DNA of 6,403 bases, from the NCBI GenBank assembly GCA_003554235.1, contig PWFY01000013.1, forward strand, positions 1 through 6,403, written 5' to 3'. The translations under genes and the position numbers were made by a program. Shown here in pieces: positions 1,287 through 5,627 of the stretch. The notes beneath the pieces are model-generated. The model saw only the letters and a list, made by a program, of their open reading frames with translations. It was not told the origin of the DNA and ran no database searches. Source of the stretch: Candidatus Aenigmatarchaeota archaeon. GTDB lineage: Archaea; Aenigmatarchaeota; Aenigmatarchaeia; PWEA01. How positions within the stretch are numbered: the first letter of the stretch is position 1; the number at the start of each line of letters is the position of its first letter.

Positions 1287-1565
1287 ATGGAAAGAGTGGC
1301 CATATATATCAAGGCGAACCCAGGCTCTGGTGAATTTTCGATAGAAGAAAAAAACAAGTGGACAGGAAGGATAAAAGTAAATCTATCGGAGCCTCCGAAG
1401 AAAAACATGGCAAACAAGGAACTCTTAAGTAGATTCTCGGAAATTCTCAACGCAGACGTAAGCTTAAAGAGAGGAGCAAAATCAAACAAAAAGGTCCTTT
1501 TGGTAAAAGGGCTTACAAAAGAAGAGGTCGGGGAGAGGTTGGAAAAACATGAAGGCAACTGTTGA
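1287..1565 (+). CDS. DUF167/YggU (UPF0235) family protein
   Basis: This 92-residue protein matches the small DUF167 alpha/beta family (usually about 75-110 residues) in order of motifs: an opening strand with VAIYIKANPGSGEF, then KVNLSEPPKKNMANKELL (family pattern APP..GKANxxL), then VSLKRGAKSNKKVLLVKGL (family pattern SGxxSRxK). The typical G-K in 'GKAN' is replaced by N-M here. The biochemical function of the family is unknown. The ATG at 1287 is chosen because it is the first Met and precedes the family's first strand by three residues; GTG at 1296 would also keep the domain. Its 3' end overlaps the next gene by 17 nt, so the two are almost certainly co-transcribed and probably translationally coupled. 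The joint placement hints at a role near tRNA or ribosome metabolism, but that is inference. Confidence 0.82.
   Translation: MERVAIYIKANPGSGEFSIEEKNKWTGRIKVNLSEPPKKNMANKELLSRFSEILNADVSLKRGAKSNKKVLLVKGLTKEEVGERLEKHEGNC
1535..1539 (+). promoter_or_regulatory. Shine-Dalgarno site GAGGT for the MtaB-like gene
   Basis: GAGGT lies inside the 3' end of the DUF167 gene, 9 nt before the ATG at 1549. It supports this ATG as the start even though it overlaps the upstream gene by 17 nt, and suggests translation initiates on the shared transcript. Confidence 0.5.
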
Positions 1566-2793
1566 AACCTACGGTTGTCCATCCAACAAGGCCCGTGGAG
1601 AAATAATCAAAGGACTGCTTGAAAGAAGAGGTTGTGAAATCGTCAAAAACCAGGACCTTGCTGATATCCTGATTCTAAACACATGCGCTGCCAAGGATTC
1701 CACCAAAAAAAGGCTTATCAACAGGCTGGATGACTGGACGAAGAACTACTCCGAAAGAGATGTGATGGTTGCAGGTTGTATGCCACAAGCAACCTATGGA
1801 AAGGCAAAGGATATTGCACCCCAAGCTTCCCTGGTTGGCCCAAACAACTGTAAAGACGTGCCAAGGGCCGTGAAAAAGATTAAGGAAGGAAATCCAGTGG
1901 AATATCTCGACGATAAGAAAGAGAAGAGATCCTGCCTACCGCGTATCAGAAAGAATAAGCTCATAGAGATATGTGAGATAACAAGGGGATGCTTTTGGAA
2001 ACCAAAACATAAGACAAGAAGCTACGAAATGAGTAGCATACTGGAAGAGATAAAAAGAAGCACGAGGTCTGGCTGCAAGGAGGTATGGCTGGCCTCCAGA
2101 GACGCAGCCTTCTACGGTAATGACATTGGAAAAAGCCTACCGGAACTTCTAAACAATGTGGTAAAAATCCCGGGCAGATTTCGTGTAAAGGTGGGTATGA
2201 TGAAAGTCGATAGCATACAACCAATTTTGGATGAACTGTTGAATGCCTACAACACAAAAGAAATATATTCCTTCCTTCATCTCCCCCTTTGGTCAGGATC
2301 CAATAAAGTACTCAGAAAAATGGACATGGGCTACACCGCCGAAGATTTCAAGGAAACTGTCAAAACGTTCAAAAAAAGAATTCCAGAGCTGAATCTTAAA
2401 ACCGATATAATAATTGGTTTACCTGGTGAAAACAAAGAAGACTTTGAACTGACCATGGATATATTAGAAGAGATAAAGCTGGATAGGGTTGATGTAAAAA
2501 TCTTCAGAGGCACCGAAAACACTGTGGACGAGGAGACCAAAAAGGAACGGTATGAGAGACTATCTAAAATTGCAAAGAATATCAGAATGGAAAGGCTCGA
2601 AAGTTTTGTGGGACAAGAAAAAGAGGTGCTGGTTATTGAAAAAAATAATAAGGGATGGGTTGGAAGGGACAAAACCTATAGAAATATTTTCCTCGGGGAA
2701 GGAGAAAAATCCATAGGAGACCTCTTGAACGTCAGAACAACTTCTAGAAGATTCTCAGGTCTTATAGGTTCTAAAATAAAATATAGAGACTAA
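1549..2793 (+). CDS. MtaB-like tRNA t6A37 methylthiotransferase homologue lacking two radical SAM cysteines
   Basis: The 414-residue protein has the three-part layout of methylthiotransferases (about 420 residues). The N-terminal MTTase domain is intact around its cluster ligands: C10 (ETYGCPSNKA), C46 (ILNTCAA) and C77 (MVAGCMPQ). A radical SAM barrel follows, recognisable from GCKEVWLASRD..YGNDIG, GMMKVDS, FLHLPLWSGSNKVLRKMDMGYT and KTDIIIGLPGENKEDF, and then a TRAM-like end (KGWVGRDKTYRN). Known e-MtaB/CDKAL1 enzymes convert t6A37 to ms2t6A37 in ANN-decoding tRNAs, using a CxxxCxxC-bound cluster to cleave SAM. Here the motif reads CFWKPKHK (residues 148-155): C148 remains, but Pro and Lys occupy the other two cysteine positions, in a stretch that looks about 8 residues shorter than usual. 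The usual Q in HLPxQSGS is W248, and the FxxRPGT loop is reduced to IFRGT. Family membership is clear; standard catalytic activity is doubtful. The next gene is 550 nt or so away. Confidence 0.85.
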   Translation: MKATVETYGCPSNKARGEIIKGLLERRGCEIVKNQDLADILILNTCAAKDSTKKRLINRLDDWTKNYSERDVMVAGCMPQATYGKAKDIAPQASLVGPNNCKDVPRAVKKIKEGNPVEYLDDKKEKRSCLPRIRKNKLIEICEITRGCFWKPKHKTRSYEMSSILEEIKRSTRSGCKEVWLASRDAAFYGNDIGKSLPELLNNVVKIPGRFRVKVGMMKVDSIQPILDELLNAYNTKEIYSFLHLPLWSGSNKVLRKMDMGYTAEDFKETVKTFKKRIPELNLKTDIIIGLPGENKEDFELTMDILEEIKLDRVDVKIFRGTENTVDEETKKERYERLSKIAKNIRMERLESFVGQEKEVLVIEKNNKGWVGRDKTYRNIFLGEGEKSIGDLLNVRTTSRRFSGLIGSKIKYRD

Positions 2794-2933: not shown

Positions 2934-3010
2934 AAACCAAAAGATGGATGAGGAAGTTCTACTAATGCACGACAAACGTCTATTAACCACCCAAGGTCAA
3001 ACCAAAAGAT
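2934..3010 (+). repeat. Two copies of AAACCAAAAGAT flanking the short ORF
   Basis: The 12-mer AAACCAAAAGAT is found at 2934-2945 and 2999-3010. Its last 11 bases (AACCAAAAGAT) occur again at 1261-1271, just before the DUF167 gene, and the core AACCAAAA recurs at 3321-3328, 28 nt before the mutase GTG. The copy at 2999 runs straight into TTTAAATAA, giving a sequence like an archaeal BRE plus TATA box. The sharing suggests a promoter element, but this is inference. Confidence 0.5.
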
Positions 3011-3018
3011 TTAAATAA
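2944..3018 (+). CDS. Possible 24-residue small ORF
   Basis: An ATG at 2944 opens a 24-codon frame ending with TAA at 3016-3018; the peptide begins MDEEVLLMHDKRLL and ends TKRFK. It lies in one of the few stretches of the gap with normal base composition and has a TATA-like box at a spacing suited to a near-leaderless transcript. There is no Shine-Dalgarno site, no recognisable motif, and such a length can occur by chance. It could equally be part of a non-coding RNA. Confidence 0.2.
   Translation: MDEEVLLMHDKRLLTTQGQTKRFK
3000..3018 (+). promoter_or_regulatory. Candidate BRE/TATA element
   Basis: AACCAAAAGA followed by TTTAAATAA fits the archaeal pattern of a purine-rich BRE next to a TATA box. 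Transcription would begin near 3040, where no start codon of a convincing gene follows; it could give a long leader for the mutase gene or a small RNA over 3040-3130. Confidence 0.3.
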
Positions 3019-3062
3019 TTTTTCTTTAAATATAATTAATAGTTGAGGCCTGTTACTCGATC

Positions 3063-3126
3063 AAGGGTCTTTAAGCCCTAATAAGTAGTTTAAAGCTCTT
3101 TTTAAGGGCTTTGAATCCTTAATAAG
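3063..3126 (+). repeat. Imperfect 23-nt direct repeat with 41-nt period
   Basis: The 23-nt stretches at 3063-3085 and 3104-3126 match at 18 of 23 positions when aligned without gaps. Both start with AAGGG and end with TAATAAG. Within the region, AAGCCCT (3073-3079) and AGGGCTT (3105-3111) are inverted, and AAAGCTC (3092-3098) can pair with GGGCTTT (3106-3112) in RNA with one G-U pair, so folded structure is possible. Role unknown. Confidence 0.5.
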
Positions 3127-3188
3127 CTTGATAAGAAATTTTAAATTTACTAGGGCATGTAAAAAGAGATTTAAAGAAATATAACGTG

Positions 3189-3215
3189 TTAAAAACTGTT
3201 TATATCAGTTTTTAA
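3189..3215 (+). repeat. Perfect 10-bp inverted repeat around a TATA-like loop
   Basis: TTAAAAACTG (3189-3198) and CAGTTTTTAA (3206-3215) are exact reverse complements separated by TTTATAT. The spacer resembles a TATA box, so the element could be an operator that overlaps a promoter for the downstream mutase operon, or an RNA hairpin. The T-run in the right arm also resembles a transcription termination signal. Nothing in the sequence decides between these. Confidence 0.6.
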
Positions 3216-3348
3216 GGACACCGTAAAGTTCAAGAAGCAAAATAAGTCCTATTTGGTTTTAAATCTTTTAGAAACCGCATGGACATCCTGCAGCTACATT
3301 GTAGTCTCAGTAGCCGGACGAACCAAAAACTTGCAAAATTTAACCAAG

Positions 3349-4884
3349 GTGGTTATCATCAGACCAGAAAAAGTATTCAAAAGATATGATATAAGAGGGA
3401 AATACCCAGAAGAACTGAACGAAGAGTTTGCAAAGAGGATAGGAAAGGCCCTGGGAAGTCTGTCCCTCAAAAACTTCACAGATGAAATAGTTGTCTGCAA
3501 AGACAATAAAGAAAGTTCGAGGAAACTAAAAAAGAAGCTCATTGAAGGACTTCTGTCTACAGGTATAAGGGTTGTAGATATAGGAACAGGGCCAACCGAC
3601 TATGCGGCCTACTCAGGAATGAAAAGAGGGTGTGTATCCGTTGAGACCACTTCTTCACATATGCCTCTAAACTTCAATGGATTCAAGTTCATGTACCCCG
3701 AAGGCAACGCCTTTGTAAACAGCGATCTCGAAAAGATTAAACAGTTGTTCAGGTCCAATGATTTTATCAGAGGGAATGGTTCTGTAGAAAAGAAGGAGGA
3801 TATGATCGAGGAATATAGACGCAGGCTTGTCAAATTTTCCGAAGATTTCTTTGAAAGGCAAAATAAAGTTGTGGTTGATAGATTAGGCGGAACTGCGCAG
3901 CTTGACAAAGATATTTTGAACAATCCTGATACAAACTTGATAGACATCACAAAAGATGAAACTCCCTCTATAGACCCACCCAACCCAAAACCAGAAAAAC
4001 TTGATAGACTAGCAAAAAAAGTTGAAGAGGAAGATGCTGATCTGGGTGTTGCCTTTGATTTAGATTCAGATAGAATCAGAGTTTTCTATGATGGAAGGTT
4101 TCTGTCTGGTGACGAATTATTCTGTATATTAGCACAGCTAACAGATGGCCCCATAGCAGCTTCAATAGATACCACATGGGCCCTCGAACAGTTTGGGGAG
4201 GTTAAAAACACAAGAATTGGAGATCCATTCCTGATGGAAGAAGCCATGAACTGTGGTGCAAAGCTAGCAGGCGAACCAAACGGACATTACGCATTCACTG
4301 AATTCGTGCCTTATCCTTCGGGAACATTGGTCTCGTTAATTCTCCACGGACTTGATATAGAAAAAAGGCTCAGAAAAGTTCCGGATATCTATATTGAGAG
4401 AAAGAACTTCGAAGTAGAAAATAAGGGTGAAATAATTGATAAGATCGGGGGAACTCTGCCTGAAAGTAGGATTATTTCAGACCTAGATGGGTTAAAATTT
4501 CGGCACGGAAACTCCACTGTACTTGTAAGGACATCAGGAAATTCAGAAAAGATAAGGATTGTTGTAGAAGGTAAAGGAAAAAAAGATGTCCAACATATAG
4601 CCAGAAGAGCAGAGGAAGCAATCAAAAGCCTCAGTGTTAAGAAATCAACGCCAAAGAACCAACTGGTTGGTGAAGTTGATAAAAAAAGGCCTGGTAGTAC
4701 AAGCTTTAGAAAAATAAAAAAACTTGTGATCAGGGAAGACCTTCTTGCTAACTACACAATAAAAAACTATTTGAAGTTTCCATTTGGACTTACGAAAAAC
4801 GAAGGTATTACGATGGACGGTGAAACAGAACAATCTGCAGGCAGGGAAATAAAAAATCCATCGTTACAAACGGAGGGCGAATAA
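3349..4884 (+). CDS. Alpha-D-phosphohexomutase (phosphomannomutase/phosphoglucosamine mutase family) with C-terminal extension
   Basis: The protein carries the four signatures of this superfamily in order: KRYDIRGKYPEEL near the start; the phosphoserine loop TTSSHMPLNFNGFKF with the likely catalytic S103; the Mg-binding loop DLDSDR (D237, D239, D241); the sugar-binding loop GEPNGH (308-313); and the phosphate-binding loop RTSGNSEKIR (394-403). Such enzymes move phosphate between C1 and C6 of hexose or hexosamine phosphates, feeding glycan and nucleotide-sugar synthesis; the exact sugar cannot be told. The usual TASHNP loop is TSSHMP here. At 512 residues it is longer than the usual 450 or so because about 82 lysine-rich residues follow the last domain (431-512). 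No ATG lies near the conserved N-terminus. I chose GTG 3349, seven codons before the conserved VFKRYDIRG; TTG 3331 and TTG 3253 are in frame alternatives. The ATP-grasp gene starts 2 nt after its stop. Confidence 0.85.
   Translation: MVIIRPEKVFKRYDIRGKYPEELNEEFAKRIGKALGSLSLKNFTDEIVVCKDNKESSRKLKKKLIEGLLSTGIRVVDIGTGPTDYAAYSGMKRGCVSVETTSSHMPLNFNGFKFMYPEGNAFVNSDLEKIKQLFRSNDFIRGNGSVEKKEDMIEEYRRRLVKFSEDFFERQNKVVVDRLGGTAQLDKDILNNPDTNLIDITKDETPSIDPPNPKPEKLDRLAKKVEEEDADLGVAFDLDSDRIRVFYDGRFLSGDELFCILAQLTDGPIAASIDTTWALEQFGEVKNTRIGDPFLMEEAMNCGAKLAGEPNGHYAFTEFVPYPSGTLVSLILHGLDIEKRLRKVPDIYIERKNFEVENKGEIIDKIGGTLPESRIISDLDGLKFRHGNSTVLVRTSGNSEKIRIVVEGKGKKDVQHIARRAEEAIKSLSVKKSTPKNQLVGEVDKKRPGSTSFRKIKKLVIREDLLANYTIKNYLKFPFGLTKNEGITMDGETEQSAGREIKNPSLQTEGE
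4872..4877 (+). promoter_or_regulatory. Shine-Dalgarno site GGAGGG for the ATP-grasp gene
   Basis: GGAGGG sits in the last codons of the mutase gene, 9 nt before the ATG at 4887. It fixes that start and shows the gene is translated from the mutase transcript. Confidence 0.6.
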
Positions 4885-4886
4885 GA

Positions 4887-5627
4887 ATGAAAAAGGTAGG
4901 TCTAATGTGTTACAGAGAACATGAAGTTTTCGACGAGGTAATTGAAAATCTAAAAGAAAGCGACATCGAAGCTATTTACTACAGTCCCGAGGAAATCATA
5001 CCCCCGGAAGACCTGGAAGAACTTGATGCTGTTTTCGGTAAAAGAAGTAGAAACGAGGTTTATGAAACACTTTTCAATGCGGAAAAGATGGGCATCGAAA
5101 CCTACAACGGCTTTTGTACACATCTTTTGTCAGATATGAACCCCCGGTCTTATGAAATTCTCACAGAGGGGGGCTATGATGTACCCAAATGGTCCTATGA
5201 AAACGATCTAGATGGAAAGGTCGTGAAAAAGCCAGTAAGTGAAAGGATGGAAGCAGAACCCGAACTAAAGGACGGGGTACGTCCTGAAAAGGGTTTCTTT
5301 TACCAAGATTTCATACCCAACTCGGGAATAGACTACAAGCTCTATGGAATAGATGAAGGTGATAAAAAAGAAGTATTTACAGTTCGCACTCCTTCTAAAA
5401 TGAGATTCGAAAGCGATGAAAGAAAACTAATTGAAAACGACAAAAAACTTGAAAGAGATGTAAAAGAAATAATGGAACTATTCGACAACGCAAGAGGCAT
5501 TGGAATAGATGTAATAAAGGCCGATAAGGATTATTTCATTGATATAAATGCAGCCCCGAGCTTCAGAGATGTTCCAAGGGCACCAGAAAGTATTTCCAAA
5601 TCCATTGAAAACATGCTAAAAAGTTAA
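4887..5627 (+). CDS. ATP-grasp family enzyme (RimK/ITPK/Ddl-like fold), substrate unknown
   Basis: This 246-residue protein has the shape of a small ATP-grasp ligase or kinase. Residues 1-80 form a Rossmann-like pre-ATP-grasp part (VGLMCYRE, EAIYYSPEEI, LDAVFGKRSR). The nucleotide-binding lysine region is GKVVKKPVSERM (K114, K115), followed by FFYQDFIPNSGIDYKLYGI, the strand pair seen in RimK and inositol phosphate kinases. The metal-binding triad appears complete: D208 in GIGIDVI, then D219 and N221 in FIDINAAPSF, matching the D/E/N set of D-Ala-D-Ala ligase. The loop between K115 and Y139 lacks the glycine-rich stretch of many relatives. The family forms carboxylate-amine bonds or phosphorylates polyols via ATP; which applies here is not visible. 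It directly follows the mutase gene and precedes the PHP gene, so its substrate could be a sugar phosphate or its derivative (inference). Cytoplasmic; no signal or membrane segment. Confidence 0.8.
   Translation: MKKVGLMCYREHEVFDEVIENLKESDIEAIYYSPEEIIPPEDLEELDAVFGKRSRNEVYETLFNAEKMGIETYNGFCTHLLSDMNPRSYEILTEGGYDVPKWSYENDLDGKVVKKPVSERMEAEPELKDGVRPEKGFFYQDFIPNSGIDYKLYGIDEGDKKEVFTVRTPSKMRFESDERKLIENDKKLERDVKEIMELFDNARGIGIDVIKADKDYFIDINAAPSFRDVPRAPESISKSIENMLKS

Follow-up and report, generated by a model that had tools for sequence, protein, structure and literature searches.

The mtaB-like gene in this stretch of archaeal DNA raises the question of whether a tRNA methylthiotransferase can outlive its own catalytic centre. 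The stretch, hereafter the window, is contig C22 of a Candidatus Aenigmatarchaeota draft genome (560,609 bases in 91 contigs, 77% complete); it spans 6,403 bases and encodes a homologue of the archaeal enzyme e-MtaB in which the cysteine motif CxxxCxxC of radical S-adenosylmethionine (SAM) enzymes has been lost. According to PMC10702137, archaeal MtaB enzymes produce ms2t6A and ms2hn6A and employ a radical-SAM cluster together with an auxiliary cluster, with one SAM donating the methyl group and another supplying the radical. We put at about one in two the probability that the window protein neither cleaves SAM nor methylthiolates tRNA, and is kept as a folded, non-catalytic Fe-S and tRNA-binding protein.

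Family membership and the radical-SAM motif

The product of the mtaB-like open reading frame (ORF) scored 319.7 bits against the e-MtaB model TIGR01578 (cut-off 314.7) and also matched UPF0004; its closest named homologues were, among the matches listed, from Candidatus Aenigmatarchaeota. A structure model predicted an MTTase domain, a radical-SAM barrel and a TRAM fold for the window protein (P0001); the Pfam TRAM profile was unmatched in it, and was likewise absent from the listed matches of two homologues from the same genus, P0121 and P0003. An earlier note on this DNA had described the catalytic motif as eroded within an intact frame, and alignment agreed on each point: C148 is present, P152 and K155 occupy positions +4 and +7, the segment (estimated at about 8 residues shorter) carries an 8-residue gap against 10 intact relatives, the frame is unbroken, and C10, C46 and C77, the auxiliary-cluster cysteines of the MTTase domain, are all kept. 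The first barrel loop is left with one cysteine instead of the three of catalytic radical SAM enzymes, and the protein is in this respect a pseudoenzyme, an enzyme-family fold (here a predicted one) without its catalytic residues.

The loss stands out both within the genome and within the family. The Pfam Radical_SAM match of the window protein begins at profile position 21, those of the seven other radical SAM proteins of the assembly at positions 1-6; all seven retain three clustered cysteines (five as CxxxCxxC and, by eye, one as Cx4CxxC and one as Cx7CxxC), and through them radical SAM chemistry appears to persist in this organism. Among the matches listed in two protein searches (154 proteins, the best 120 of each search, from a capped set of scored candidates), 150 carried CxxxCxxC, sought anywhere in the protein for P0122-P0154, and 2 carried CxxxxCxxC; only P0001 and P0121 had neither pattern. 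The two variants, P0060 and P0101, are MtaB homologues with four residues instead of three between the first two radical-SAM cysteines.

The earlier note had confined the erosion to the motif; the motif is indeed lost, but the change is wider. In an alignment of 129 intact proteins (80% non-redundant; L030, of 609 amino acids, and P proteins shorter than 395 amino acids omitted; P0060 and P0101 counted as intact), 39 columns were at least 95% conserved. The window protein departs from 7 of these, whereas the intact proteins depart on average from 0.37 and never from more than 3.

Distribution and number of losses in the genus

A first scan of the genome contigs with the window protein as sole query yielded no relatives. 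A UPF0004/mtaB match was present in three of the five other genomes of the genus (G001-G005; the window genome is G000), namely G003, G004 and G005. In G004, the source of P0003, the motif is intact (GCCGNCSYC). The prospect, raised in the earlier note, that close relatives would all have the complete motif was not borne out; G003, the source of P0121, and G005 have lost it in two further, different ways, in full-length frames of 415 and 416 amino acids, with 12 and 13 of the 39 conserved columns altered. Judged from sequence, a gene with an eroded motif, an open, full-length frame and a normal predicted fold is found in three of six examined species of one genus of uncultured archaea (G000, G003 and G005, hereafter the eroded three). 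A second, intact mtaB was sought and none was found: each of the four genomes with any UPF0004 protein has one, and none was detected in G001 or G002, assemblies of the genus being 77-94% complete, such that a missed copy is possible in principle. For these assemblies, the idea that the eroded proteins are paralogues of an intact copy located elsewhere was rejected on these grounds.

In a survey reaching beyond the genus, CxxxCxxC was kept at 27 of 29 non-window loci (G004 included) and at 19 of 19 loci L052-L070. In the wider sample mtaB is patchy, with matches in 40 of 60 genomes, 10 of the 40 yielding no locus for motif reading. At L070 (about 8001-9240), a Marsarchaeota homologue has an intact motif (GCLSACTFC) in a reading frame that is broken mid-gene, after the motif.

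The PKD gene lies upstream of mtaB in the window, G003, G004 and G005, with DUF167 between the two in all but G005; the loci are orthologous. G002 has no mtaB at this place: its PKD gene leads straight on to the GlmM-like gene that in the window comes after mtaB. In G001 a gene that by eye corresponds to the one after mtaB in G004 lies within about 50 bases downstream of the PKD gene. A tblastn search of the G001 and G002 loci detected no remnants of mtaB or DUF167 (best E 0.07), and searches for DUF167 in G001, G002 and G005 were negative.

A species tree built on Kae1, EF-2 and the PKD-domain protein, which also included five outgroup genomes, joined G000 with G004 (100/98) and G003 with G005 (86/83); the run warned that long branches meet at the root, and both pairs stayed when RpoA1 and AlaRS were added (99-100). 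Given these trees, vertical descent and no regain, the motif was lost at least twice. Several results run contrary to this: RpoA1 alone backs the G000 and G004 pair weakly (64/50), G000 and G002 share the highest Kae1 identity, and by the order of the downstream genes G000 goes with G002 and G004 with G001. The MtaB trees are ambiguous. Against independent loss, a 32-row MtaB tree placed the eroded three in one clade (89/86); we regard that tree as suspect because of its long branches. A 17-row MtaB tree recovered the window protein with that of G004 (75/98) and G003 with G005 (60/63), and a single eroded clade appeared in 10% of its bootstrap trees. Over these two trees the branches of the eroded proteins measure 0.71-1.14, whereas six near intact proteins have branches of 0.21-0.45. 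A single ancestral loss, backed by the 32-row tree but by neither the 17-row tree nor the species trees, was rejected.

The window encodes, in order, a PKD-domain protein, DUF167, the mtaB-like ORF, a GlmM-like protein, an ORF of 246 amino acids and a PHP-domain protein (Table 1). Elsewhere in the order, DUF167 occurs in 5 of 8 genomes; it lies on a different contig from mtaB in G007 and G008 and more than 400 kb from it in G013, and G009 and G010 have DUF167 and no mtaB match. The mostly non-coding spacer between mtaB and the GlmM-like gene (2974-3339) matches the G002 spacer at 78.7% identity over 367 columns. An archaeal promoter-like element, CCAAAAGATTTAAATAATTTTT, was recognized by eye close to the beginning of this stretch, and short matches to it lie 3' of mtaB in G003 and G005. 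At gathering score the window matched no Rfam family. The GlmM-like gene scored 226.8 against TIGR03990, well below the cut-off of 439, and its DNA is 87.5% identical to that of G002 over 559 bases. Such identity seems high between these species; transfer or strong constraint may account for it. The 246-residue ORF (4887-5627) matched nothing in Pfam or NCBIfam, and by eye we take it to resemble an ATP-grasp/RimK-type protein.

Table 1. Positions of the mtaB-derived gene, its altered and retained sites, and neighbouring genes in the window.
Feature	Position	Strand	Remarks
mtaB-derived ORF, 414 aa	1549..2793	+	UPF0004/MTTase domain, radical-SAM-fold domain and TRAM-like C-terminus, from profiles and predicted fold
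Eroded radical-SAM loop, G147-C-F-W-K-P-K-H-K-T-R-S158	1987..2022	+	Lacks two of the three cluster cysteines, with a net loss of 8 residues
C10 codon, auxiliary [4Fe-4S] ligand position	1576..1578	+	Kept in all eroded three
C46 codon, auxiliary [4Fe-4S] ligand position	1684..1686	+	Kept
C77 codon, auxiliary [4Fe-4S] ligand position	1777..1779	+	Kept
Q248 to W, HLPLQSGS motif	2290..2292	+	W/L/V in the eroded three; Q in 99% of 129 intact proteins
R260 to M, MNRxYT motif	2326..2328	+	M/V/M in the eroded three; R in 129/129 intact proteins
DUF167/YggU gene	1287..1565	+	Overlaps mtaB start; neighbours mtaB in G003 and G004; none found in G001, G002, G005
PKD-domain protein, 5' end cut by contig end	1..1236	+	Syntenic marker; present in 6/6 genomes
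GlmM/phosphomannomutase-like gene	3349..4884	+	Frame open from 3253; GTG start at 3349 chosen by us

Constraint on the eroded proteins and competing explanations

Neutral drift of the G004 gene was simulated in two sets of 300 runs; a stop codon arose after a median of 10 missense changes, with a 99th percentile of 69-70 and maxima before stop of 86 and 165. The branch to the window protein is longer than the G004 branch by about 0.36-0.52 changes per site, which by our arithmetic is roughly 150-210 residues. Losses were also unevenly distributed: at positions fixed in the six near intact proteins, pooled retention over the eroded three was 87% for hydrophobic residues, 85% for Gly/Pro, 83% for Asp/Glu, and 67% each for Lys/Arg and other polar residues (90-97% in leave-one-out controls among the intact six). 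Cysteines of the MTTase domain were kept in 12 of 12 cases and those of the radical-SAM domain in 6 of 15; for the cluster ligands alone the count was 9/9 auxiliary against 3/9 radical-SAM (Fisher p 0.009, the lineages being related), and G9 and G76 are unchanged alongside C10, C46 and C77 in all three. The preferential retention of core over polar and basic residues was matched by only 2/300 neutral runs for G003 and 1/300 for G005.

By our arithmetic from identities, the lost branches evolve at about 2.9 times the rate of intact proteins in the MTTase domain, 2.7 times in the radical-SAM domain and 1.4 times in the TRAM region. For the G003-G005 MtaB pair a neutral ratio was rejected (2dlnL, twice the log-likelihood difference, of 144), with synonymous divergence (dS) saturated and the history of the pair including pre-loss time. 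Constraint on the eroded proteins thus looks reduced but still present, the TRAM region showing the smallest reduction.

Set against the retention of a folded, non-catalytic protein is a group of results, chief among them that two of six congeners (G001 and G002) lack mtaB at the locus and that Lys/Arg retention is poor in G003 (61%) and G005 (55%). These two values speak against an RNA interface preserved in full; in the window protein retention is 84%. In addition, the fold-constraint test for the window protein was matched by 25/300 neutral runs and was not significant alone. The core-over-polar difference was 0.09-0.22 in six intact outgroup proteins, compared with 0.16, 0.23 and 0.23 in the eroded three, and the pattern may therefore predate the loss. 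Because MtaB synonymous sites are saturated, the ratio of nonsynonymous to synonymous divergence (dN/dS) gave no estimate of selection for the eroded branches by themselves. Finally, the eroded three evolve fast, and their MTTase domain is accelerated about as much as their radical-SAM domain.

A rival explanation is decay under relaxed selection, in which ms2 modification became dispensable in this genus, the radical-SAM site eroded, and DUF167 and mtaB were then deleted, with no function of its own left to the eroded protein. The genus offers the graded series that such a course would leave (intact in G004, eroded in G000, G003 and G005, gone in G001 and G002), DUF167 is missing from G001, G002 and G005, mtaB is patchy in the wider sample, and dN between G003 and G005 is 0.565 for MtaB, above all seven neighbours (0.098-0.257 for six of them, 0.434 for the seventh); the core-over-polar pattern, being similar in the intact outgroups, need not mean present selection. 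Against decay stand three frames that are still open although they have taken on more change than almost any neutral run reached before a stop, the preferential retention of hydrophobic, Gly/Pro and auxiliary cysteine positions, and a confidently predicted fold. We consider it quite possible, and favour over it a catalytically dead but folded MtaB.

That the eroded proteins are still radical SAM enzymes, their catalytic cluster held by migrated cysteines or other ligands in a changed motif, we judge improbable. One loop cysteine remains in each of them, shifted spacings do exist (Cx4CxxC in P0060 and P0101, Cx7CxxC in another G000 protein), and all three keep C142, which lies shortly before the loop. 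On the other hand, there is just that one loop cysteine per protein, and the near-invariant Q248 and R260 of the barrel have been exchanged for hydrophobic residues in all three. The earlier note was right that the radical-SAM centre is lost while the frame and auxiliary cysteines are intact; its suggestion that C129 and C142 might form an unusual ligand set had to be rejected, as intact relatives have these cysteines too (G004 among others for C129, P0002 among others for C142) and neither G003 nor G005 retains C129. An assembly or base-call error masking an intact motif, conceivable in so fragmented a draft genome, is very improbable and was rejected, since different losses in two congeners leave base-calling almost no room, the protein also differs at other conserved sites well away from the loop, and an identical P0001 is recorded on a second contig of 46,235 bases (6,403 here), although from reads that are possibly not independent.

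A possible role and comparison with known systems

If the protein is folded and catalytically dead, as we favour, what might it do? The second half-reaction of MtaB is not expected without the radical-SAM cysteines; the auxiliary cluster would stay bound at C10, C46 and C77, and t6A-tRNA would be bound through the fold and TRAM region and left unmodified, for example so that the t6A37 anticodon loop is shielded or chaperoned. The substrate is probably available, because Kae1 is full length in all six members of the genus and a short Sua5-like protein is present in five; a Sua5/YrdC family match was obtained in all six, that of G001 being its only one and lying in a 761-residue frame that may be another protein of the family. 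As the gene appears dispensable in the genus, any such role would be weak or replaceable. That a second job of MtaB, as guard of the t6A37 loop or as an auxiliary-cluster Fe-S protein, preserved the fold and the N-terminal cluster site after at least two independent losses of the catalytic engine in one genus is a more tentative proposal, and a doubtful one.

The eroded protein is likely either to have a non-catalytic job or to be on its way out, and the genus provides, at a single conserved locus, a natural series of intact, eroded and absent states of a tRNA modification enzyme. Should the eroded proteins prove functional, they would separate binding by MtaB from catalysis, a question also raised for human CDKAL1. 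There is an annotation hazard as well: the eroded protein passes the cut-off of the NCBI naming model and would be named a functional tRNA methylthiotransferase. No title or abstract opening among those listed from an open-licence library describes a methylthiotransferase without the radical-SAM motif; this would be a pseudoenzyme in a family for which that search showed none.

The nearest relatives are the e-MtaB proteins themselves (TIGR01578; MJ0867, MA1153 and human CDKAL1), which the window protein resembles in its score above cut-off, predicted three-domain fold, auxiliary cysteine triad and the locus shared with the intact G004 gene, and from which it differs in having neither CxxxCxxC nor the Q and R conserved in the radical-SAM barrel. 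MiaB (7mjv-7mjz) and RimO (4jc0) are catalytic and carry two clusters, whereas the radical-SAM cluster site of the window protein is gone.

QueE and CDKAL1 retain their catalytic motif, whereas in eroded MtaB that motif has been lost in nature. Both are tRNA-modifying radical SAM proteins with a role beyond modification and offer a precedent for non-catalytic roles: QueE acts in cell division, its R27A mutant being dead for queuosine catalysis and still modulating septation (PMC11142719), and CDKAL1 has a role in eIF4F assembly besides tRNA modification (PMC10131790). The TrmFO-like proteins of Mollicutes, as described in PMC7226160, are similar in being relatives of a tRNA-modification enzyme kept with altered function in a reduced-genome lineage; they belong, however, to another enzyme family and are paralogues, whereas eroded MtaB is the sole copy found.
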